Assembly: GCF_009828775.2 (NCBI RefSeq)
Contig: NZ_WTSY02000005.1
Coordinates: forward strand, 1 to 64,000
Reading direction: 5' to 3'
DNA from: Erysipelothrix aquatica
Lineage (GTDB): Bacteria > Bacillota_I > Bacilli_A > Erysipelotrichales > Erysipelotrichaceae
Length of the DNA: 64,000 bases
Both the position numbers and the translations under genes were made by a program. The notes beneath the pieces were generated by a model. The model ran no database searches, was not told where the DNA came from, and saw only the letters and a list, made by a program, of their open reading frames with translations. Shown in pieces: positions 219 to 10,373 of this stretch (the stretch's first letter is position 1; the number at the start of each line of letters is the position of its first letter).

Positions 219-1532
219 ATGAAGAAAATACTAGTATTATTATTGAGTTTATTAGTGCTTACTGCTTGTGGATCAAAAGCTAGCGGTGGTGCTCAAACTG
301 AAGCAGATATGGCCAAAGCAGAACGCGTTCTTGAAGGGACGATTCAAATCTATGCGCCAAAAGGAAAAAACTCTGACTATCTTACGAAGTCAATGGAATT
401 ATATAATCAAAAATATTCAGCAAATTTAAAATTAGATTTAGTTGATGTTGCTCCAGCAATTCCAATGGTACAAAAAATTACACCAATGCTTGTATCAGAT
501 GAAAAAATGCCAGAATTAGTATTCATGCAAGATTCAGTTGCAGGATCTATCTTTGAAAAATTCGAAGACCGTTTCTACTCAGCTGAAGCATTCGGATTTG
601 TTGGTGAACACGGAAGCAAATTCTACCCTGCAAAAATGAACATGCTAAAAAATATCGCACCAAGTAAACAAACATTTGGATTCCCTAATGACTGGGGTAA
701 TGCCGCAATGTTCTATAACGATGCAGCATTCAAAGAAGCTGGGGTCAACATGGAAGAAGTCAAAACATGGGACCAATTCATTGAAGCAGGTAAAAAACTA
801 AATGCAGCTACAGGTAAAAAATTAATGTATATGCGTGATACAGGTGAAGTCGATATGATCAACTATCTGACCGAACAACAAGAGGTATCCATGTTTGATG
901 AATCAGGAAACTTGAACTTACTTAATGATGCGGTCATCAAAGCATATGATGTTGTAAACCAAATTCAAGAAGCAGATCTTGCAGCTTATGGACCATCAAA
1001 TGATTATATTAAAATTGGACAAGAAACAGGTGTTATCTTACAAGGTGGTTGGTTAGCGTCAATGCAATCAAAAGATTTCCCAGATGATTCAGGAAACTGG
1101 CGTGTCGCAAAATTACCACAAATGATTGAAGGTAAAGACGTCGCTCCAATGAGTGGTGGATCAAGCTACTATGTTACAAAAAATTCTGAAAATGCAACGG
1201 CTGCATACCAATTCATTACCTTTGCACTCACAGACCTTGATGCCTTACAAGCATACATGGGATTCATGGGACTTCCTGCAAACATGGAAGCCTATGAAAC
1301 AGAAGCTGCTAAGAAACAATTCGAATACTACGGTAACCAAAGCATTCTCGAAGAACTCAACGAAATTAGTAAAACAAGCGTGAATGGCTATGTCTACCCT
1401 TACTCAACAGACCTTGCAAACTATATTCAACAAGCAAGTTATGACATTCAATATAACGGTGCAGATGTTAAAACAGCACTCGAAAAACAAGCAAACGATT
1501 TTGCTCAAAAATATGGCATTAAAGTGAACTAA
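219..1532 (+). CDS. Sugar ABC transporter substrate-binding lipoprotein
   Basis: This 437-residue protein is the extracellular binding component of a carbohydrate ABC importer. It begins with a lipoprotein signal peptide ending in the lipobox LTAC, with the lipidated cysteine at residue 17, and the mature part has the length and composition of family 1 solute-binding proteins. An AGGAGG ribosome binding site lies just before the ATG. It is the first gene of an operon with two permeases, a heparinase II/III-like lyase, a GH88 hydrolase and KduI, so the ligand is probably an unsaturated uronic-acid oligosaccharide. No ATPase gene is nearby; a shared MsmX-type ATPase elsewhere in the genome would be expected. 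Confidence 0.93.
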   Translation: MKKILVLLLSLLVLTACGSKASGGAQTEADMAKAERVLEGTIQIYAPKGKNSDYLTKSMELYNQKYSANLKLDLVDVAPAIPMVQKITPMLVSDEKMPELVFMQDSVAGSIFEKFEDRFYSAEAFGFVGEHGSKFYPAKMNMLKNIAPSKQTFGFPNDWGNAAMFYNDAAFKEAGVNMEEVKTWDQFIEAGKKLNAATGKKLMYMRDTGEVDMINYLTEQQEVSMFDESGNLNLLNDAVIKAYDVVNQIQEADLAAYGPSNDYIKIGQETGVILQGGWLASMQSKDFPDDSGNWRVAKLPQMIEGKDVAPMSGGSSYYVTKNSENATAAYQFITFALTDLDALQAYMGFMGLPANMEAYETEAAKKQFEYYGNQSILEELNEISKTSVNGYVYPYSTDLANYIQQASYDIQYNGADVKTALEKQANDFAQKYGIKVN

Positions 1533-1547
1533 GTACTCTGATTTATG

Positions 1548-1579
1548 AGCACCTTCTCAGGTTTATTGCGGGGGGTGCT
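1548..1579 (+). terminator. Attenuator-like hairpin between binding protein and permease genes
   Basis: The arms AGCACC (1548-1553) and GGTGCT (1574-1579) can pair across a 20-base loop and are followed by TTCTTT. A partial terminator or mRNA-stabilising hairpin here would let the binding protein be made in excess over the permeases, as in many ABC operons. The stem is short, so the call is tentative. Confidence 0.4.
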
Positions 1580-1602
1580 TCTTTGATTATTAAGGAGCAT
1601 AT

Positions 1603-2481
1603 ATGAAAAGCAATATCGAATCACAACAATCCAAATCAGCTTATAAAATGTTGTCGCCGTTTATTTTCTTCTTTGTCCTAACGGTGCTAATACCTACTAT
1701 CGCATCTCTCTTCTTTAGCTTTATGAAAATTTCATCTCAGTTTGAGTGGGTGGGATTCGATAACTTTATAGGGATTTTTAAAGATCCATTATTCTTCAAA
1801 TCGTATGTGAACGTCTTTATTTTTATGGCTGGTTCAATTCCGATTACAATACTACTTGCATTAATCTTTGCGGTTATTCTTAATAAACCGATGGTCAAAG
1901 GACGTACGTTCTTCCGTACGGTTTACTATCTTCCTGCGATTACTTCAATTGTTGCAGTATCGTCTATCTTTTTAACATTTTACAATCCTACGGGACTCTT
2001 TAACCAAGTACTTGCATTAGTAGGGTTAGGGCCTATTCCGTGGCTAACTGACCCGTTTTGGGCCCGTGTATCAATCATAATTGTTTCGATCTGGCTCAAT
2101 GTTGGTTACTATACAATCCTCTTCTTAGCAGGGTTACAAAATGTTCCAGGTGAAATTTATGAAAGTGCAGATATTGATGGTGCCAACAAAGTCCAACAAT
2201 TCTTCCGTATTACGATTCCAATGCTGAAACCTGTTATTTTGATGGCAATCATCCTATCGACGATTAATGGTTTGGGAGCATTTGAAGTTCCAAACATCTT
2301 GTTCAAGAATGGATTCGGTCCAGAATCATCTGTTGTTACTGTGGGGGTTAACCTCTATAAAACAAGTTTTGAGATGGTTGACTTCGGTCGTGCATCAGCA
2401 ATTTCATGGACAATGGTCTTTGTATCAGCAGTTCTATCGATAATTCAGTTCAAGCTTGGAGGTAAAGATAATGAAGCGTAA
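1603..2481 (+). CDS. Sugar ABC transporter permease (MalF/UgpA type)
   Basis: A 292-residue inner-membrane permease with about six transmembrane segments. It carries the binding-protein-dependent transport signature, including the cytoplasmic EAA-like loop around residues 187-206 (YESADIDGANKVQQFFRITI), which contacts the ATPase. The ribosome binding site is AAGGAG before the ATG. Its end overlaps the next permease by 11 bases, so the two are probably translationally coupled. It forms the channel with the product of the following gene and takes substrate from the upstream lipoprotein. Confidence 0.93.
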   Translation: MKSNIESQQSKSAYKMLSPFIFFFVLTVLIPTIASLFFSFMKISSQFEWVGFDNFIGIFKDPLFFKSYVNVFIFMAGSIPITILLALIFAVILNKPMVKGRTFFRTVYYLPAITSIVAVSSIFLTFYNPTGLFNQVLALVGLGPIPWLTDPFWARVSIIIVSIWLNVGYYTILFLAGLQNVPGEIYESADIDGANKVQQFFRITIPMLKPVILMAIILSTINGLGAFEVPNILFKNGFGPESSVVTVGVNLYKTSFEMVDFGRASAISWTMVFVSAVLSIIQFKLGGKDNEA

Positions 2482-3298
2482 ATTACCATCATTAACTCTA
2501 ATTTATTTTGTATTAATATGTGGTGTTGTTGTCTTTGCGCTTCCATACCTATACATGATTATTTCATCTACACAAACCAATGAAGTCATTCTTGGAACAA
2601 CACTAAATTTCAAATTTGGACCGCACTTCGGTGCTAACATTGGCGAAGTTCAAGAGAAGTATGATTATGTTCGCGTCTTGATGAATACAGCAATTATTAC
2701 AATTGTCGGAACGGTTATCTCAACGTTCATCACAACTTTAGCGGGATATGTTATGGCTAAGTACAAGTTTAAAGGTCAAAAATTGATGTTTAACCTCGTT
2801 ATGGTTTCACGGATGGTACCACAATTTGCTGTGATCATTCCACAATTCTATATCTTAAGCAAACTTGGACTTACAAACACCTATGCTGGTGTGATCATCC
2901 CTGCACTTGCATCAACAAACTCTGTGTTTATCATGCGTCAGTACGCCAAGCAGATTCCAGATGAAATCTTGGAGGCACCACGTATTGATGGTGCTAACGA
3001 ATGGACAATATTCTCAAAAATTGTAGTTCCAATTTTAATTCCAAGTATCATTACGACTGCACTTCTTACATTCATGGCATACTGGAATGCATATCTCATG
3101 CCATTAATTATGTTAACAGATCCAAAGAAATTTACAGTGCCACTTATCATTCAAAATATGACACAAAACTTCTACGATCCATTAAATTACGGTGCTTTAA
3201 TGGCATTGCTTGCAACATCAGTAATTCCAATCATTTTAATCTACGGTTGGTTACAAACAAAATTCAAAGCGACCAATTTGGATTCAGCAATTAAATAA
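2471..3298 (+). CDS. Sugar ABC transporter permease (MalG/UgpE type)
   Basis: A 275-residue permease and partner of the preceding one. I chose the ATG at 2471 because GGAGG at 2459-2463 is well placed before it, although the frame is open a little further upstream. It has a hydrophobic N-terminus, about six membrane segments and the EAA loop (EAPRIDGANEWTIFSKIVVP). The C-terminal part matches the MalG class that pairs with CUT1-family sugar permeases. No ATP-binding gene follows, and the operon instead goes straight into catabolic enzymes. Confidence 0.92.
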   Translation: MKRKLPSLTLIYFVLICGVVVFALPYLYMIISSTQTNEVILGTTLNFKFGPHFGANIGEVQEKYDYVRVLMNTAIITIVGTVISTFITTLAGYVMAKYKFKGQKLMFNLVMVSRMVPQFAVIIPQFYILSKLGLTNTYAGVIIPALASTNSVFIMRQYAKQIPDEILEAPRIDGANEWTIFSKIVVPILIPSIITTALLTFMAYWNAYLMPLIMLTDPKKFTVPLIIQNMTQNFYDPLNYGALMALLATSVIPIILIYGWLQTKFKATNLDSAIK

Positions 3299-3302
3299 TG
3301 CT

Positions 3303-3338
3303 AAGACTGCTTGGAGCGAAACGGCTTGAAGCAGTCTT
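3303..3338 (+). terminator. Hairpin terminator between transport and catabolic genes
   Basis: A perfect 10-base-pair stem (AAGACTGCTT with AAGCAGTCTT) is followed by TTTTA. It lies directly after the permease stop codon and before the lyase gene. It may partly terminate transcription, setting a ratio between importer and enzymes; no new promoter is obvious before the lyase. Confidence 0.65.
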
Positions 3339-3371
3339 TTTATGAATAAAATCTAAAGGAGATAAGAATCT

Positions 3372-5306
3372 ATGCATGATTCATTTGTTGGAAATATTAA
3401 TTTGACACGTCACAAATTAAAACAAACATTAATGCTTCTCGACAGTACTGAACGGCGTGCACTTATCGCGCGTGCAGAGCTTATACTTACAGACACGTTT
3501 GTGTTTGATAATGAATGGGATATGGAACGTTCTCATGAACCAATTAACCTACCCAAAATGGATCGTGAATGGAACTATGTCCATAATAGTGATCTAGAAT
3601 GGTCGTATATGTTTCACCGTCATACATTCCTAAATGATTTGTGGGCTGCTTATGCGCTAACGGACGACTTTAAATATATTGCCTATCTCATGGATTTTAT
3701 TGATTTATGGATTTTGGAAAATCCGCATACAAAAGTAAATCACCCATTCAGTTGGCGAACAATAGATACTGCCATTCGTATGAACAATTGGATTCGGATT
3801 ATTGATGCATTACGCGTGATGGAAGTTTTGGATACACAATGGGCAAACCGTCTTTGTGTGTCACTGGATGAGCAAGCTAAACATGTCTCTGATAATCTCA
3901 GTATCATTCGAGCACAGAGTAATTGGGTTGCTATTGAAACCAGCAGTGTCATTGTCTACGAAATATTTAGATATCGCGATGCGTCCAAACGAAGCACTTA
4001 TAAAAATGCGGTATCGTTGTTACAACTCTGTATGAAGCTGCAGATTAACCGCGATGGACTCCAGTGGGAACAATCGTTTATGTATCATCATGAAGTCTTG
4101 ATGGTCTTACTACAAGCATTATGGATTCAAAAGCAAAATGGATTAAAGTCACACAGCCTATTTCTTGAAAGTGCGGAACTGATGACCCGTGCTTCAGAAA
4201 ACCTACGACGTCCGGATAGTACCCAAAGTAATTTTGGAGATAGCGATGTCGAGGTTATGGATGGAATTTTGGCTTTTGCGCAAACAGTCCTCGGTCGGGA
4301 AGTCGAAGGCGCAAAAGGAAATCTCTTTTCAGTCATGCTTTCAGGGATCAACGAGACCGCTGGCGATGTAAATTCAGCATTAATCTCGACGCATATGTAT
4401 GAGTCAGGAATATCTATTATTAAGCATGCTGCATCTGGAAACTTCCTTATGTTTACGCACGGTCCCTTAGGAGGGGGCCATGGTCATGACGACTTGTTGC
4501 ATCTAGAACTTATGTATCGTTTCAAACCAGTCCTCATTGATTCAGGAAGATTTACCTATTTCGAAACCAATCGATCACGTCTAAAATTTAAAAGTTCACG
4601 TGCCCATAATACTGTTTTATTGGATGATCAGGACTACAATGAACACAAAGATGCATGGGATACATTAAAAAACGTTGCGGCAGAGAATCGTGAATTCATT
4701 AATGGATCACGTCTCACTTATTTAAAGGCTGGACACTTTGGGTATAGTACTGTCGCCAATGCTGTATATGTACAACGTGAGGTAATTGCGTTAGAAGATA
4801 TGCGAATTCTCGTCATTGATACGTCTCACGGTCAACAAAATCAAGCATTAACCCATCATTTTATCTTTAATTCAAAAGAGGTCACCATTTCAGAACAGAC
4901 AGCAATCCATAACGAAACAGGGTATCAAGTTCAAAGTTTTGGCTCAACACAGCCCTGGATTCAAGAAACAACAGAAGTTTCTGAAACTTATAATAAAAAA
5001 AGAGAAACAATCCGTATCATCAAAAAGCATGCTGAACAAAAAGTAGTCACATACTTAAGTCCTGTTCAGTATCGAGATATTACGAGTATACCGGTCTATG
5101 ACGAACGTGGTGCACTGATTGATCCGACTATTGTGAGTTGTTATCGCTTCGAGATTGATACTGTATACGAACATGTTTTGATACAACACCAAGAACCTCA
5201 AGATGGCCGTAAGGTTTACGTGGTTTCAGGTCATTATTTTTACGGGACACTTATCCATTTTGTGACTGATGGCGAGACCCTTATTTATGAAGAAAAAATA
5301 CGATAG
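3372..5306 (+). CDS. Cytosolic heparinase II/III-like polysaccharide lyase
   Basis: A 644-residue protein of the heparinase II/III type. The N-terminal half is alpha-helical and rich in Trp, as in the (alpha/alpha) toroid of these lyases. The C-terminal half has the hallmark stretch GGGHGHDDLLHLELM near residue 367, followed by DSGRFTY and RAHNTVLLD, which hold the candidate catalytic His and Tyr. There is no signal peptide, so it should act inside the cell on imported oligosaccharides. By family knowledge it cleaves uronic acid-containing glycans by beta-elimination. GH88 and KduI downstream fit the unsaturated product. Whether it prefers heparin, hyaluronan or another glycan cannot be read from the sequence. 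Confidence 0.85.
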   Translation: MHDSFVGNINLTRHKLKQTLMLLDSTERRALIARAELILTDTFVFDNEWDMERSHEPINLPKMDREWNYVHNSDLEWSYMFHRHTFLNDLWAAYALTDDFKYIAYLMDFIDLWILENPHTKVNHPFSWRTIDTAIRMNNWIRIIDALRVMEVLDTQWANRLCVSLDEQAKHVSDNLSIIRAQSNWVAIETSSVIVYEIFRYRDASKRSTYKNAVSLLQLCMKLQINRDGLQWEQSFMYHHEVLMVLLQALWIQKQNGLKSHSLFLESAELMTRASENLRRPDSTQSNFGDSDVEVMDGILAFAQTVLGREVEGAKGNLFSVMLSGINETAGDVNSALISTHMYESGISIIKHAASGNFLMFTHGPLGGGHGHDDLLHLELMYRFKPVLIDSGRFTYFETNRSRLKFKSSRAHNTVLLDDQDYNEHKDAWDTLKNVAAENREFINGSRLTYLKAGHFGYSTVANAVYVQREVIALEDMRILVIDTSHGQQNQALTHHFIFNSKEVTISEQTAIHNETGYQVQSFGSTQPWIQETTEVSETYNKKRETIRIIKKHAEQKVVTYLSPVQYRDITSIPVYDERGALIDPTIVSCYRFEIDTVYEHVLIQHQEPQDGRKVYVVSGHYFYGTLIHFVTDGETLIYEEKIR

Positions 5307-5314
5307 GAGTACTT

Positions 5315-6442
5315 ATGACAGCAGAAATAATTAAGCAAGCGTTGGATCGTGTAGCAATCCAAACAACATTGAATATGGAATACTTTGTAGACACATTTCC
5401 GTCAGCTTCGACAATTCATAACCAATATCAGAAGGTAAAAAACGAAGATTGGGTAGAAGGTTTTTGGACAGGTATATTGTGGATGATGTTTGAATACCAA
5501 CAACTACCAGTTTATCGTGAGATGGCACAAAGTCATGTCATCTCATTTATAGATCGTATGGATCGTAATATTGTGCTTGATCATCATGACATGGGATTTC
5601 TCTATTCATTATCGTGTGTTGCCTCATATCGCCTAACAGGGGATGAAGCAGCGAAAGATGTTGCCCTCAGGGCTGCAGATAAACTCATCGCAAGATGGCA
5701 TGAAAACCCAGGTTTCATCCAAGCATGGGGTGCTAAAAATGACCCACAAGAACATCGCTTTATTATTGATTCGCTCTTGAATCTACCCCTTTTATACTGG
5801 GCTAATGATGAAACAGGAATTGGTGAGTATCGCGATATAGCAGATCGACATTATCAAATTTGCTTAACATACCTCATTCGAGATAACGGGAGTAGTTATC
5901 ACACCTATTACGTTGATCCAATAACGCACGTTCCAAGTCATGGACTGACGCGACAAGGATTTAGTGATGACTCGTCATGGGCAAGGGGACAGGCGTGGTC
6001 AATTTATGGAATTGCTCTTGGCTATAAACATTATCCACATGCTGAGACCATGAGCCAATTTATGGCAGTTACTGATTACTTTCTCGAAAAACTTCCAGAC
6101 GATCAGGTAGCATACTGGGATTTAATCTTTACTGATGGATCAGACCAGCCACGTGACAGCAGTGCGGCTGCTATTGCGGTATGTGGCATGCTCGAGATGC
6201 TACCCCATATCACAGATGCCAACTATAAGAAGAAAATCGTATCAGCAGTTGATGCAATTATGCTTAGCCTCATCAAAAATTATTCCAATAAACAACCGGT
6301 CAAAGGTCATGCGCTTCTTAATGAAGGTGTATATTCGTGGCATGACAAGTTTGGCATAGAAGAAGGAAATATTTGGGGAGATTACTTTTATGTTGAAGCT
6401 CTGATGCGCCTCAACAATCCATCATGGAAGCCGTACTGGTAA
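5315..6442 (+). CDS. GH88 unsaturated glucuronyl hydrolase
   Basis: A 375-residue cytosolic hydrolase of glycoside hydrolase family 88, which removes the 4,5-unsaturated uronic acid from oligosaccharides made by lyases. The two aspartates needed by the Bacillus enzyme (88 and 149) correspond to D92 (HDMGF) and D152 (IIDSLLNLPLL). The motifs DDSSWARGQAW and DSSAAAIA are also typical. It starts 8 bases after the lyase gene behind AGGAG. Its product isomerises to the KduI substrate, so its place in the operon is functionally logical. Confidence 0.93.
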   Translation: MTAEIIKQALDRVAIQTTLNMEYFVDTFPSASTIHNQYQKVKNEDWVEGFWTGILWMMFEYQQLPVYREMAQSHVISFIDRMDRNIVLDHHDMGFLYSLSCVASYRLTGDEAAKDVALRAADKLIARWHENPGFIQAWGAKNDPQEHRFIIDSLLNLPLLYWANDETGIGEYRDIADRHYQICLTYLIRDNGSSYHTYYVDPITHVPSHGLTRQGFSDDSSWARGQAWSIYGIALGYKHYPHAETMSQFMAVTDYFLEKLPDDQVAYWDLIFTDGSDQPRDSSAAAIAVCGMLEMLPHITDANYKKKIVSAVDAIMLSLIKNYSNKQPVKGHALLNEGVYSWHDKFGIEEGNIWGDYFYVEALMRLNNPSWKPYW

Positions 6443-6491
6443 CAAAAAAACACATTTATATAACCGGTTTACTAGCACTGTTTACTAAATA

Positions 6492-6518
6492 ATTGCGATA
6501 CAGCACGTTATTCGCAAT
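6492..6518 (+). promoter_or_regulatory. Inverted repeat in the gap after the GH88 gene
   Basis: The 212-base gap at 6443-6654 contains arms ATTGCGA (6492-6498) and TCGCAAT (6512-6518) around a 13-base loop. There is no U-tract, so it looks more like an operator or processing hairpin than a terminator. TATGAT at about 6559 may be a -10 box but has no good -35 partner. No gene is visible in this gap. Confidence 0.3.
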
Positions 6519-6654
6519 CTATTGTCTGAACCCGGCAGTTCTACAAAAAGTATATGGTATGATAGAAATGTTGTTGCATGTGTCGTTGCGTTGATTAAAA
6601 CGAAACATGAAGCATATGCCATCACAATTAACCCTATTGGTAAAAGGAGAATCT

Positions 6655-7488
6655 ATGATTAAATTAGGTATTTACAATAAAGACAATCAGATCGTACGTG
6701 AAAAATTTGATCCTAAATATGAATTGCCAGATCGTTTACTGTATGGCGAATCGGAAGAAGCGGTTCACATTGGGAGTCGTAAAATTGCACTTCAAGAAGG
6801 AGATTTTATTCGCCTTGAAGTTGATCAACCCAATCAATACATTTGGGTCAAGTTCGATGATACATTCGAACCAAGCCTTGTGTACATTAAAGATGCAATA
6901 ACATGGGACTATCAAATTCCATTTGAACAATTAGAACGTAGTGCATTGAAAGATACATCATTCACTGGCAATGGTCACTATATTTATGCACGTTATGCCT
7001 ATGATTTTGAAATTAGTCAGTATCGCAACTTGGCATTAAACCGCCATGCAGAATATCTCAACAAAGGGGTATACCCACATGCATCAGCAAATGTCGAAAC
7101 GCGAAATGACCCAACTTTCTTTGCTCGTAATGCAATTGACGGTGTTTGGGCAAATGATGATCACGGAGCTTACCCCTATCAATCTTGGGGTATTAACCAA
7201 CAAGATGATGCAGCATTAACGATTGATTTCGGACGTGAGATTGTGACGGATATGATTAGCATTACTTTGCGTTGTGACTTCCCTCATGATACGTGGTGGA
7301 ATCAAGTATCGATGTCATTCGATGATGGATCCGAAGCAGTCTTTGAGACCGTTAAAACGGATGCCCGTCAAGTCTTCAAATTCGAAGCTAAAACTATTAC
7401 CTCACTAACAATGCATTCATTGATTAAAGGAGAGCCAGGACCATTCCCAGCCCTCACCCAACTTGAAGTTTTTGGAACTAACAAATAA
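6655..7488 (+). CDS. Cytosolic discoidin-like protein of uronate operon
   Basis: A 277-residue protein. I start it at the ATG at 6655 because AAAGGAGA precedes it; the frame is open upstream but without a binding site. The N-terminal half (about residues 1-120) is beta-rich and unrecognised. The C-terminal half resembles an F5/8 type C (discoidin) galactose-binding fold, from NLALNRHAEY through the AIDGVWAND segment to the end. There is no signal peptide, which is odd for a sugar-binding module. Homologous proteins are, from memory, common in uronate-utilisation loci. It could be an isomerase, a hydrolase accessory factor or a sugar sensor; I do not assign a reaction. Confidence 0.7.
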   Translation: MIKLGIYNKDNQIVREKFDPKYELPDRLLYGESEEAVHIGSRKIALQEGDFIRLEVDQPNQYIWVKFDDTFEPSLVYIKDAITWDYQIPFEQLERSALKDTSFTGNGHYIYARYAYDFEISQYRNLALNRHAEYLNKGVYPHASANVETRNDPTFFARNAIDGVWANDDHGAYPYQSWGINQQDDAALTIDFGREIVTDMISITLRCDFPHDTWWNQVSMSFDDGSEAVFETVKTDARQVFKFEAKTITSLTMHSLIKGEPGPFPALTQLEVFGTNK

Positions 7489-7505
7489 GATAAGGAGCCT
7501 TTATT

Positions 7506-8342
7506 ATGAAATTAGAAACACGCTATGCAGCAAGTCCACGCGAAATGGAACGTTTAAATACAACCGAACTGCGCGAACAATATTTAGTTGAATCAATCTT
7601 TATTCCTGGAGACATCTTGTTAACATATACGCACAATGACCGTATGATTTTTGGTGGTGTAACACCAACAACGACGCCATTAGAAATCGTTTTAAGCACA
7701 GAACTCGGTGTGGAATACTTTTTAGAACGTCGTGAATTAGGTGTCATCAACATTGGAGGTAGTGGATCCATCACGATTGAAGGTGAAACGTTTGCCATGG
7801 AAAAACAAGATGGCTTCTACATTGGTAAAGAAACGAAAGACATTCAATTTATGTCAAACGATGCAAGTCACCCAGCAAAATTCTACGTCGTCTCGGTACC
7901 TGCACATAAAAAATATCCAAACGTTAAAATTAGCATCGATCAAATTACACCACGTCTTGCTGGTGAAGCAAAGAGCATGAACGATCGCGAAATCTTCCAG
8001 TATATTCATCCAAATGTATGCGAAAGCTGCCAACTTCAAATGGGATATACGATTTTAAAGGAAGGTTCATCATGGAATACCATGCCAAGTCATACTCACG
8101 AACGTCGCATGGAAACGTATCTTTACTTTGATATTCCTGAAGGAAACCGTGTGTTCCATTTTATGGGTCAACCTCAGGAAACACGTCATTTACTCGTATC
8201 AAATGAACAAGCATGTATCTCACCAAGTTGGTCAATTCATACGGGTGTTGCGACATCAAACTACTCATTCATCTGGTCAATGTGTGGGGAAAATATTACA
8301 TATGACGACATGGACCATGTCGCAATGGAAGACTTACGTTAA
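7506..8342 (+). CDS. kduI: 5-dehydro-4-deoxy-D-glucuronate isomerase
   Basis: A 278-residue cytosolic metalloenzyme that converts 5-keto-4-deoxyuronate to 2,5-diketo-3-deoxygluconate. The zinc ligands known in the E. coli enzyme fall at the same numbers here: H196, H198, E203 and H245 (MPSHTHERRMETY and SWSIHTG). Length is exactly that of the family. It follows the discoidin-like gene by 17 bases with AAGGAG before the ATG. It is the last gene of the operon, so kduD, kdgK and kdgA, needed to finish the pathway, must lie elsewhere. Confidence 0.97.
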   Translation: MKLETRYAASPREMERLNTTELREQYLVESIFIPGDILLTYTHNDRMIFGGVTPTTTPLEIVLSTELGVEYFLERRELGVINIGGSGSITIEGETFAMEKQDGFYIGKETKDIQFMSNDASHPAKFYVVSVPAHKKYPNVKISIDQITPRLAGEAKSMNDREIFQYIHPNVCESCQLQMGYTILKEGSSWNTMPSHTHERRMETYLYFDIPEGNRVFHFMGQPQETRHLLVSNEQACISPSWSIHTGVATSNYSFIWSMCGENITYDDMDHVAMEDLR

Positions 8343-8346
8343 TTTA

Positions 8347-8375
8347 AAGGGGTACTTTGTATCCTTTTTTTTGTG
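8347..8375 (+). terminator. Probable terminator after kduI
   Basis: An imperfect stem pairing AAAGGGGTAC with GTATCCTTT is followed by a T-run. It sits immediately after the kduI stop codon and before the promoter of the sirtuin operon. The bulge makes it weaker than the other terminators here. Confidence 0.5.
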
Positions 8376-8389
8376 CTTGTGCATTTGAA

Positions 8390-8417
8390 CTGACTATCCC
8401 CGGAACTTGCGTATAAT
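8390..8417 (+). promoter_or_regulatory. Promoter of the sirtuin operon
   Basis: A perfect -10 box TATAAT (8412-8417) has CTGACT (8390-8395) 16 bases upstream as a four-of-six -35 box. The start codon of the first sirtuin gene is about 30 bases downstream, leaving room for an AGGAGA binding site at 8431-8436. Confidence 0.6.
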
Positions 8418-8448
8418 GAATATTAAGACGAGGAGACGTAGAAATTAT

Positions 8449-9012
8449 ATGATTATAGCATTAACCGGAGCGGGGATTAGTAAAGCTTCAGGACTAAAAA
8501 CATTTGATGAAATGCCGGGGGTACGCCAAATGTTGAATAAAGAATTCTTAGAAAAAAATCCCGATGCATTCCGTAATTCGGTATACAACATGCATGATTT
8601 GTTCATGGTTGCTGAACCCAACGATGCACATCTCGCATTAGCTGAATATGGTGTTCAAATATTGACGATGAATGTGGATGGATTGCATGAAAAGGCGGGA
8701 AGCAAGCCGATTAACTTACATGGTACAATTCCGACACAGTTTCAAATTGACAATGATTTGGACCTAGAAAATCGTCCTGTACTATATGGTGAAGCAGCTC
8801 CAAACTATCCAAAAGGCATTGAGGCTATTAAAAAGCTAGGAAAAGATGATATACTTTTAGTAATAGGAGCATCGGAGTATACCGTCATATCCAATGACAT
8901 TCGCCGCATTGCAGCAGAAAATGGCGCCCATGTTATTGAAATTCAACAAAATGCGGTTGCGAATACTCGAATTGTTCTTGAGAATCTTATAAAGGCGGGT
9001 ATACAAGTATGA
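8449..9012 (+). CDS. Zinc-less Sir2 family NAD-dependent protein, copy 1
   Basis: A 187-residue minimal sirtuin. I place the start at the ATG at 8449 behind AGGAGA; the reading frame continues upstream into the promoter. It keeps the NAD-binding GAGISKASG motif, the MNVDGLHEKAG segment (canonical TQNIDGLH, here with Met for Gln), the catalytic His in NLHGTI, RPVLYGE and the GAS loop. It has no cysteine at all, so the four-cysteine zinc module of ordinary sirtuins is absent, and it is shorter than a typical bacterial CobB of about 240 residues. Deacylase, ADP-ribosyltransferase or NAD hydrolase activity are all possible. Its stop overlaps the next gene by four bases. Confidence 0.85.
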   Translation: MIIALTGAGISKASGLKTFDEMPGVRQMLNKEFLEKNPDAFRNSVYNMHDLFMVAEPNDAHLALAEYGVQILTMNVDGLHEKAGSKPINLHGTIPTQFQIDNDLDLENRPVLYGEAAPNYPKGIEAIKKLGKDDILLVIGASEYTVISNDIRRIAAENGAHVIEIQQNAVANTRIVLENLIKAGIQV

Positions 9013-9557
9013 TATTAGCATTTACAGGAGCAGGAATTAGTAAAGACTCAGGCATTAACACATTCATGGAGATGCCTGAAGTACGTGATCGTTTGTACCG
9101 TACATTTGCGACGGCACATCCTCAAGCGTATCAAGAAACGATTCGCGACCTTGTAAATGCAGTCAAAAATGCGGAACCTAATGATGCACATCGTGCCCTT
9201 GCTGAATACAAAATTCCAATCATCACGATGAATATTGATGGGTTGCATGAACGTGCTGGAAGCACCCAAGTTCTTGAAGTTCATGGAGTACTCCCTTCTG
9301 AAGATGAAATTGAGTATGCACATGAACTCTTTCATAAGCCCGTTCTTTATGGCGATCCAGCACCCAATTATGCCAAAGCAATTCAGAAAGTTTCAAAATT
9401 AGAATCTGGAGATATTCTTTTGGTGGTTGGTGCATCGCGGTATACACAAATTGCTGTTCAGATACGCGAAATTGCCTATATGAATGGCGCAAGCATCATA
9501 GAAATTCAAGATGATGCAACTGCAAAAGTACGGGATTTTCTATCACGAAATGCTTGA
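9009..9557 (+). CDS. Zinc-less Sir2 family NAD-dependent protein, copy 2
   Basis: A 182-residue paralogue of the preceding gene, overlapping it by ATGA, so the two are translationally coupled. It keeps GAGISKDSG, MNIDGLHERAG, the catalytic His in EVHGVL, KPVLYGDPAPNY and GASRYT, and likewise contains no cysteine. The two are clearly a tandem duplication that has diverged, which suggests a heterodimer or two related substrates. A pyrophosphatase/Nudix fusion follows 30 bases later, so the products of NAD consumption may be processed by the same operon. The exact reaction is not deducible. Confidence 0.85.
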   Translation: MILAFTGAGISKDSGINTFMEMPEVRDRLYRTFATAHPQAYQETIRDLVNAVKNAEPNDAHRALAEYKIPIITMNIDGLHERAGSTQVLEVHGVLPSEDEIEYAHELFHKPVLYGDPAPNYAKAIQKVSKLESGDILLVVGASRYTQIAVQIREIAYMNGASIIEIQDDATAKVRDFLSRNA

Positions 9558-9587
9558 TGGGGATATAAAATCCCTAAAGGAGGATGT

Positions 9588-10334
9588 ATGGAAACAACGA
9601 TATTAGGTCGCACAGTAAACGTTAAGATACATCGCCCAATGGGAAGCATGCATCCTGTGTATAGTTCGTTACTTTACGAACTTAATTATGGTGAGGTAGA
9701 GGGCGTATATACACATAATAACGAACTCCAAGACGCCTACTTAGTTGGTGTTGAAGGGCCGGTGTCAGAATTTACGGGACAAGTTATCGCTGTTATACAC
9801 CGTGACAATAGTCCAATTACGAAGTGGGTAGTGGCCCAAGAGGGAGCTATTTTCTATCATGACGACATTTTACGTCAAGTAAACTTTCAAGAACAGTACT
9901 TCAATATTACGATTGATGCACTCTATAAAGTATCGGCTGGGTTTTTAGTATATCGTGAACAACCGGAGCGTGAATACTTGTTGATTCGACTCCAAGACCA
10001 AGAGAACTGGTCATTACCTAAAGGACGTATCAAACGTGATGAATTATCATGGGATACCGCAAATCGTGAGCTTTACGAAGAAGTGGGATTATCGGTTGAC
10101 AGTGTCGAGACAACGCATTTTGTGCTAGAGTACGACTATCGTGATCAGTATCATAAGAAAATCATTCTATATTTGGGATCTATTGACACCGAGCAAGAAG
10201 TTATAAAGCATCCAAAAATTGAAACATATGCATGGATGTCATATGATAAAGCCTATCAAGCGGTTGCAGGAACCTACTGGGAATCTATCATTGTTTCTGC
10301 AGAGCAATGGCTCAATCCAATACCATTACAATAA
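9588..10334 (+). CDS. Pyrophosphatase-like domain fused to Nudix hydrolase
   Basis: A 248-residue two-domain protein. Residues 1 to about 107 resemble small stand-alone inorganic pyrophosphatase-like proteins of Firmicutes (HPVY, ELNYGEVEG, QDAYLVG, AVIHRDN, KWVVA, FQEQYF). Residues from about 113 form a Nudix hydrolase with a perfect box: G146, E152, then REL.EEVGL at 160-168. Nudix enzymes split a nucleoside diphosphate linked to another group, for example ADP-ribose, a sirtuin-related product, or dinucleoside polyphosphates. AAAGGAGG precedes the ATG. It sits 30 bases after the sirtuin pair, suggesting a common NAD-related job. Catalytic competence of the first domain is uncertain. Confidence 0.82.
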   Translation: METTILGRTVNVKIHRPMGSMHPVYSSLLYELNYGEVEGVYTHNNELQDAYLVGVEGPVSEFTGQVIAVIHRDNSPITKWVVAQEGAIFYHDDILRQVNFQEQYFNITIDALYKVSAGFLVYREQPEREYLLIRLQDQENWSLPKGRIKRDELSWDTANRELYEEVGLSVDSVETTHFVLEYDYRDQYHKKIILYLGSIDTEQEVIKHPKIETYAWMSYDKAYQAVAGTYWESIIVSAEQWLNPIPLQ

Positions 10335-10373
10335 AGACATTCGTCAGATTAATACGATCTTCCGAATGTCTTT
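10333..10373. terminator. Bidirectional terminator overlapping a coding end
   Basis: The arms AAAGACATTCG (10333-10343) and CGAATGTCTTT (10363-10373) form an 11-base-pair stem between convergent genes. The right arm and part of the loop encode the last residues of the small membrane protein on the minus strand, so one sequence serves as both coding end and terminator. Confidence 0.7.

Follow-up and report, generated by a model that had tools for sequence, protein, structure and literature searches.

Compact sirtuins without a zinc module in Erysipelothrix and their possible takeover of the role of CobB

The adjacent genes sirA and sirB of Erysipelothrix aquatica encode two mini-sirtuins for which we favor, with some reservation, one explanation: they would be compact sirtuins of the CobB type that have secondarily lost the zinc module and have taken over the job of CobB, namely, NAD-dependent deacylation. 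This reading is based on sequence comparisons and a predicted structure. SirA and SirB belong to a zinc-less clade of canonical sirtuins that is real and, in the open-access literature searched, unnamed; the search of this literature retrieved no paper on zinc-less CobB-type sirtuins or on Erysipelothrix sirtuins.

Locus layout and features of SirA and SirB

The window, that is, the whole stretch of 64,000 nucleotides analyzed, is located on contig 5 of an Erysipelothrix genome (2.15 Mb), the nearest named relative being E. anatis. The run of three genes (Table 1) is flanked by a polysaccharide-use cluster on one side and by mnmE on the other (names assigned by eye). The former, a probable cluster at 219-8342, includes genes for a sugar ABC transporter and for heparinase-like, unsaturated glucuronyl hydrolase-like, and KduI-like proteins, also named by eye. 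The start ATG of sirB and the stop codon of sirA overlap by 4 bp, and 30 bp, containing a strong Shine-Dalgarno sequence, separate sirB from the third gene, which encodes a fusion protein. As judged from their arrangement, the three genes probably form a single transcript; the hairpin, the promoter-like element, and the inverted repeat are each weak signals and are jointly compatible with it. The loop of the inverted repeat exceeds what the hairpin scanner handles. Position 8390, the start given in the original prediction, belongs to the promoter-like element and is no coding start. Computed dN/dS values with respect to the E. anatis orthologs were 0.035 for sirA, 0.095 for sirB, and 0.035 for the fusion gene, and all three are therefore working genes under purifying selection.

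Table 1. Features of the three-gene run and its flanks, in window coordinates
Feature	Position	Strand	Comment
Terminator-like hairpin, 3' of the preceding gene and 5' of sirA	8346..8368	+	1 site versus a shuffle mean of 1.8; weak alone
Promoter-like element CTGACT-16-TATAAT, 5' of sirA	8390..8417	+	As many such motifs in the region as expected by chance; location and perfect TATAAT suggestive only
sirA, mini-sirtuin copy A, diverged paralog	8449..9012	+	187 aa, 0 Cys
sirB, mini-sirtuin copy B	9009..9557	+	182 aa, 0 Cys; copy kept in 13/13 Erysipelothrix genomes
Fusion gene, class-I-pyrophosphatase-like (aa 1-112) and Nudix hydrolase domain (aa 114-222)	9588..10334	+	248 aa
N-terminal pyrophosphatase-like domain of the fusion	9588..9923	+	Partly degenerate
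Exact Nudix box GRIKRDELSWDTANRELYEEVGL	10023..10091	+	aa 146-168 of the fusion
11-bp perfect inverted repeat AAAGACATTCG / CGAATGTCTTT, right at the fusion gene end	10333..10373	+	Possible transcript end; read from sequence

The original prediction described two coupled, cysteine-free, zinc-less mini-sirtuins that keep the NAD pocket and the catalytic His, and the analysis bore this out. SirA and SirB are 51% identical. The Pfam family SIR2 (PF02146) covers residues 7-95 in both (E values of 3e-12 and 1e-14), with scores of 47.2 and 55.2 bits versus a cut-off of 24, the match being restricted to profile positions 1-106 of 180; SIR2 aside, the Pfam search of the two proteins yielded no credible family match. 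Neither protein contains a single cysteine, so the four-Cys zinc module is absent, and an alignment with canonical sirtuins of the same bacterial family revealed that the entire zinc module and the long cofactor loop are missing. Both proteins keep the GAGIS motif, the nicotinamide-pocket residues Asn and Asp, and a His of the catalytic type (N75, D77, and H92 in SirB); the motifs retained by SirA are GAGIS, N, D, and HG. Among 53 homologs, the motifs GAG-S, T-M-N-x-D, H-G, L-Y, and G-x-S are invariant, and the acyl-peptide strand VLYG is nearly so. The Gln of TQN is replaced by Met in 53 of 53, and the Arg of GIPDFR is replaced as well. In canonical sirtuins, this Gln and this Arg help to place NAD; on their role, nothing usable was found in the open-access literature.

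The AlphaFold model of SirB (mean pLDDT of 95.2, pTM of 0.90) has a CobB-like Rossmann core, and its best match among solved structures is Escherichia coli CobB (1s5p; Z of 21.4, 1.8 Å over 176 residues). All of the 50 matches listed per solved-structure comparison were canonical sirtuins of the CobB/Sir2Tm/Sir2Af/Sirt5 kind, that is, of the deacylase type; SIR2_2 and SLOG-like folds were not among these 50 listed matches, an absence that excludes nothing. The mini-sirtuins thus share with CobB, Sir2Tm, and Sir2-Af (PF02146, NAD-dependent protein deacylases) the fold (Z of ~19-21), GAGIS, the N and D, the His-Gly, and the acyl-peptide strand, whereas they differ in the missing zinc module, in a length reduced by ~60 residues, and in the altered Gln and Arg positions. 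All NCBIfam equivalog models scored far under their cut-offs (91 bits versus 320 for the CobB model). The lack of a zinc module is shared with the SIR2_2 sirtuins (ThsA, DSR1/2, FAM118), but the mini-sirtuins fall inside the canonical family in the tree, whereas SIR2_2 is considered ancestral (PMC12700824). SIR2_2-type profile searches of SirA and SirB gave no match. Another comparison concerns SirTM, the macrodomain-linked class M: a macrodomain gene lies just upstream of the zinc-bearing short relatives at loci L126, L127, and L130, whereas none was seen by eye among the immediate neighbors of the window pair. A ferritin-like gene is found downstream of the zinc-bearing short sirtuin at L126 and L127, and the genomes of L127 and L130 additionally hold a canonical sirtuin.

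Phylogeny and distribution of the zinc-less clade

A scan of GTDB genomes for mini-sirtuins and relatives retrieved 79 loci plus 4 viral contigs. The loci are spread over Erysipelotrichia, Clostridia, Acholeplasmatales, Psittacicella (Gammaproteobacteria), Veillonellaceae, and Calditrichales; the 4 contigs (L142-L145), 2 of them of 174 and 211 kb, come from a viral collection. Distant homologs of ~200 aa bear CxxC...CxxC pairs, which are lacking in the remaining homologs. In a maximum-likelihood tree, 49 of 49 zinc-less rows grouped in one clade (support of 100/99), with the zinc-bearing short sirtuins adjoining it and the canonical sirtuins placed on the zinc-bearing side. The tree was rooted at the midpoint, and the direction of the zinc change rests on the canonical family being zinc-bearing; with this rooting, the simplest reading of the sequences would be that the zinc module was lost once, secondarily, in a lineage of the canonical sirtuin family.

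The genome of the window encodes no SIR2 protein besides SirA and SirB. Among 209 Erysipelotrichales genomes that were at least 90% complete, the mini form was present in 43 and the canonical form in 133, and both were present in 0 of the 209. The observed overlap of 0 compares with 27 expected, corresponding to a hypergeometric probability of 4e-24, a value that ignores kinship. A similar picture was obtained for one family of the sample (f2), which we call Coprobacillaceae after the organisms to which its matching loci belong, with 28 mini versus 8 canonical forms and both in 0 of 38 genomes (p of 9e-7). Genera g67 and g53 each include species with the mini form and species with the canonical form, and the swap therefore occurred more than once. 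Furthermore, the mini form is the sole SIR2 protein found in the genomes of Psittacicella, Acholeplasmatales, Anaerofustis, and Veillonellaceae. Outside Erysipelotrichales, exclusivity is not general because three Oscillospiraceae genomes carry both forms. This distribution suggests that the mini-sirtuin may do the job of CobB in place of the ordinary sirtuin, a pattern that does not by itself prove the chemistry.

Within Erysipelothrix, a single sirtuin gene is the rule: the B-type gene was identified in 13 of 13 genomes and the A-type gene in 4, always with a B copy in the same genome. The coupled A-B pair is present in three genomes (window, E. anatis, and G083), and the A and B genes of E. 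urinaevulpis are not linked. The tree places the A/B duplication inside Erysipelothrix, with a long branch leading to SirA (stem of 0.78). The best explanation for these data is that SirA would be a faster-evolving paralog from a duplication inside the genus and SirB the conserved enzyme.

The fusion protein and the genomic neighborhood

The third protein had been described as a pyrophosphatase-like domain joined to a perfect Nudix box, and this description proved accurate. The NUDIX family (PF00293) matches residues 114-222 (E value of 1.8e-15), and the 23-residue box GX5EX7REUXEEXGU is exact at the residues given in Table 1. The N-terminal 112 residues are a member of a 110-residue family that is common as a stand-alone protein in Erysipelotrichaceae. 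Stand-alone and fused relatives match the profile of class I inorganic pyrophosphatase (PF00719; E values of up to 1.9e-7), whereas the domain in the fusion has ~110 rather than ~175 residues and the window copy has no Pfam match in this region; some acidic positions conserved in relatives are lost in this copy, which is partly degenerate. At L035-L062, this family occurs either stand-alone or fused to several domains, including Nudix in the reverse order (L050), GrpB (L043), GNAT (L053), a VCA0040-like translocase (L037), and others. The predicted structure of the fusion (mean pLDDT of 41) was too low in quality for use, and no relatives of the fusion were found in the viral contigs.

In both profile and PDB searches, the best matches of the Nudix domain were RppH, Ap4A hydrolase, and Dcp2; the fusion differs from these in scoring far under the equivalog cut-offs and in having the additional pyrophosphatase-like domain. 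The proposed cleavage of ADP-ribose compounds by this Nudix partner found no backing, the ADP-ribose pyrophosphatase model TIGR00052 scoring 12.6 bits, below its cut-off of 79.55. A PADLOC search of the fusion revealed no defense family beyond a weak generic Nudix match (PDC-S07, E value of 1.1e-5). The fusion is most likely a hydrolase with a housekeeping role in cleaning up nucleotides. The complete fusion was found in just two genomes, those of the window and of E. anatis, and its location next to the sirtuins therefore tells little about function. The two species are nearly identical (97-98% identity between the proteins), and in the third species the sirtuin pair stands without the fusion. 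The gene order is thus not kept beyond close relatives, and the idea of a self-contained three-gene system was rejected on the basis of the genome distribution across Erysipelothrix. The fusion is a recent, lineage-specific neighbor of the sirtuins and is probably on the same transcript.

Clustering of the neighbors across the 79 loci revealed no widespread operon partner. Neighbors are lineage-specific and include mnmE, rpiA, rpiB, and genes for endonuclease IV, a maltose-type acetyltransferase, and GNAT. The mini-sirtuin gene overlaps or abuts rpiA, rpiB, or the maltose-type acetyltransferase gene at L066, L070, L068, L115, L069, L083, L085, and L111, and this adjacency in different lineages is a possible functional hint. 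The acetyltransferase neighbors were set aside as proof of deacylation since there are few independent cases.

A different context was observed in five Coprobacillaceae-type genomes, in which the mini-sirtuin gene is followed by the Septu genes ptuA-ptuB. The loci at which the mini-sirtuin gene would be an integration hotspot are L103 (4974-10528), L146 (G196:C27, 7000-26900), L110 (4956-8817), L088, L093, and L108. Displaced 3' sirtuin copies are stacked downstream at this site, and at L103 and L110 every extra copy is cut at the same place, at codon ~20. On contig C27 of the L103 genome, positions 7982-8050 still hold the 5' end of the native sirtuin gene. Behind it comes an element with genes for a relaxase and for a large serine recombinase in degraded form. 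At either end of the element there are perfect 19-bp inverted halves around TT (left, ATTCCAACTTT/AGTGGATACACAATAAGGC; right, GCCTTATTGTGTATCCACT/TTCATGGA), which look like the two halves of a serine-recombinase attP. The element supplies a complete sirtuin gene, restoring the broken one, with Septu behind it and a second layer that holds PDC-M38. A search for the 18-bp element end in the viral contigs gave no hit. In Acholeplasmatales, L079 (1917-5552) contains a different insertion, at codon ~27, which carries AbiEi-AbiEii together with a second, complete copy of the sirtuin gene. An origin of the tandem pair of the window from such a hotspot was rejected because neither copy is truncated and their identity is only 51%. 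The open-access literature search retrieved no paper on sirtuin genes as integration sites. We consider it a lead that the mini-sirtuin gene may be an integration hotspot for defense cargo (Septu, PDC-M38) in Coprobacillaceae; in these gut bacteria, it would be a concrete route for the accumulation of phage-defense genes.

Function of the mini-sirtuins

According to the explanation that we favor, the zinc-ribbon module would have been lost secondarily and the cofactor loop shortened within the canonical CobB-type PF02146 family, the resulting mini-sirtuins would have replaced the ordinary sirtuin in Erysipelotrichales, and, in the lineage of the window and in one further lineage, SirA would have come to lie ahead of SirB in an overlapping frame. 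NAD+ would bind across the GAGIS/N75-D77/H92 pocket, nicotinamide would be released, and the ADP-ribosyl unit would be transferred to the acyl group that the VLYG strand holds, amounting to zinc-free NAD-dependent deacylation. Three aspects speak against this. The loss of zinc could mean a loss of deacylase activity, the Gln and Arg discussed above are changed across the whole mini-sirtuin subfamily, and the two forms coexist in the three Oscillospiraceae genomes. According to a 2025 paper, canonical sirtuins need the zinc module for deacetylation, and the zinc-less SIR2_2 proteins ThsA, DSR2, and FAM118, considered older than canonical sirtuins, are NADases (PMC12700824). Since the zinc module is said to be required for deacetylation, a reversion to NAD hydrolysis stays a real rival: the mini-sirtuins would pass ADP-ribose to water, like the SIR2_2 defense enzymes, and tune or deplete NAD. 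The altered pocket residues are in line with this possibility, but we consider it unlikely, as fold and sequence group the mini-sirtuins with CobB and other deacylases, the acyl-peptide strand is nearly invariant, and an always-present core gene that is the sole sirtuin of the genus fits poorly with a toxic NADase.

It appears somewhat less probable still that one or both copies bind NAD or ADP-ribose without turnover, with SirA regulating SirB as a heterodimer. The long branch to SirA, the constant presence of a B copy, and the overlapping frames, from which similar protein amounts are expected, would agree with such an arrangement, but SirA keeps the motifs of the pocket and is under strong purifying selection, and the two genes are unlinked in E. 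urinaevulpis. We see little prospect for the proposed set, with the sirtuins as producers of ADP-ribose compounds and the Nudix partner as the enzyme that clears these. The three genes share a strand, a short gap, and probably a transcript, Erysipelatoclostridium An173 contains an independent pair of mini-sirtuin and stand-alone pyrophosphatase-like genes 122 bp apart, and some relatives abut rpiA or rpiB, the products of which would use ribose-5-phosphate; against these points stand the confinement of the gene order to two near-identical species and the similarity of the Nudix domain to RppH, Ap4A hydrolase, and Dcp2. A role in the response to phages, also part of the original prediction, is the least probable of all and very improbable in itself: Septu genes lie directly 3' of the mini-sirtuin gene in Coprobacillaceae-type genomes and mini-sirtuins occur on viral-collection contigs, but integration inside the mini-sirtuin gene accounts for the Septu neighbors, the window pair has no such neighbors, and PADLOC found no match on SirA or SirB.

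In published opinion, deacetylation goes together with the zinc module, and NAD hydrolysis with its absence from an older branch of the family; the clade described here permits a direct test of this idea. On the basis of the sequences, we propose only tentatively that a canonical sirtuin without the zinc module and without two NAD-positioning residues could still be the NAD-dependent deacylase of the cell, CobB having been displaced several times. If true, the view of the zinc module as a requirement for deacylation would be overturned, and a minimal sirtuin would comprise ~180 residues. To our knowledge, this would be the smallest sirtuin scaffold, useful for studies of mechanism and for engineering. 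The clade is of moderate interest now, and its interest would be high if deacylation were shown.
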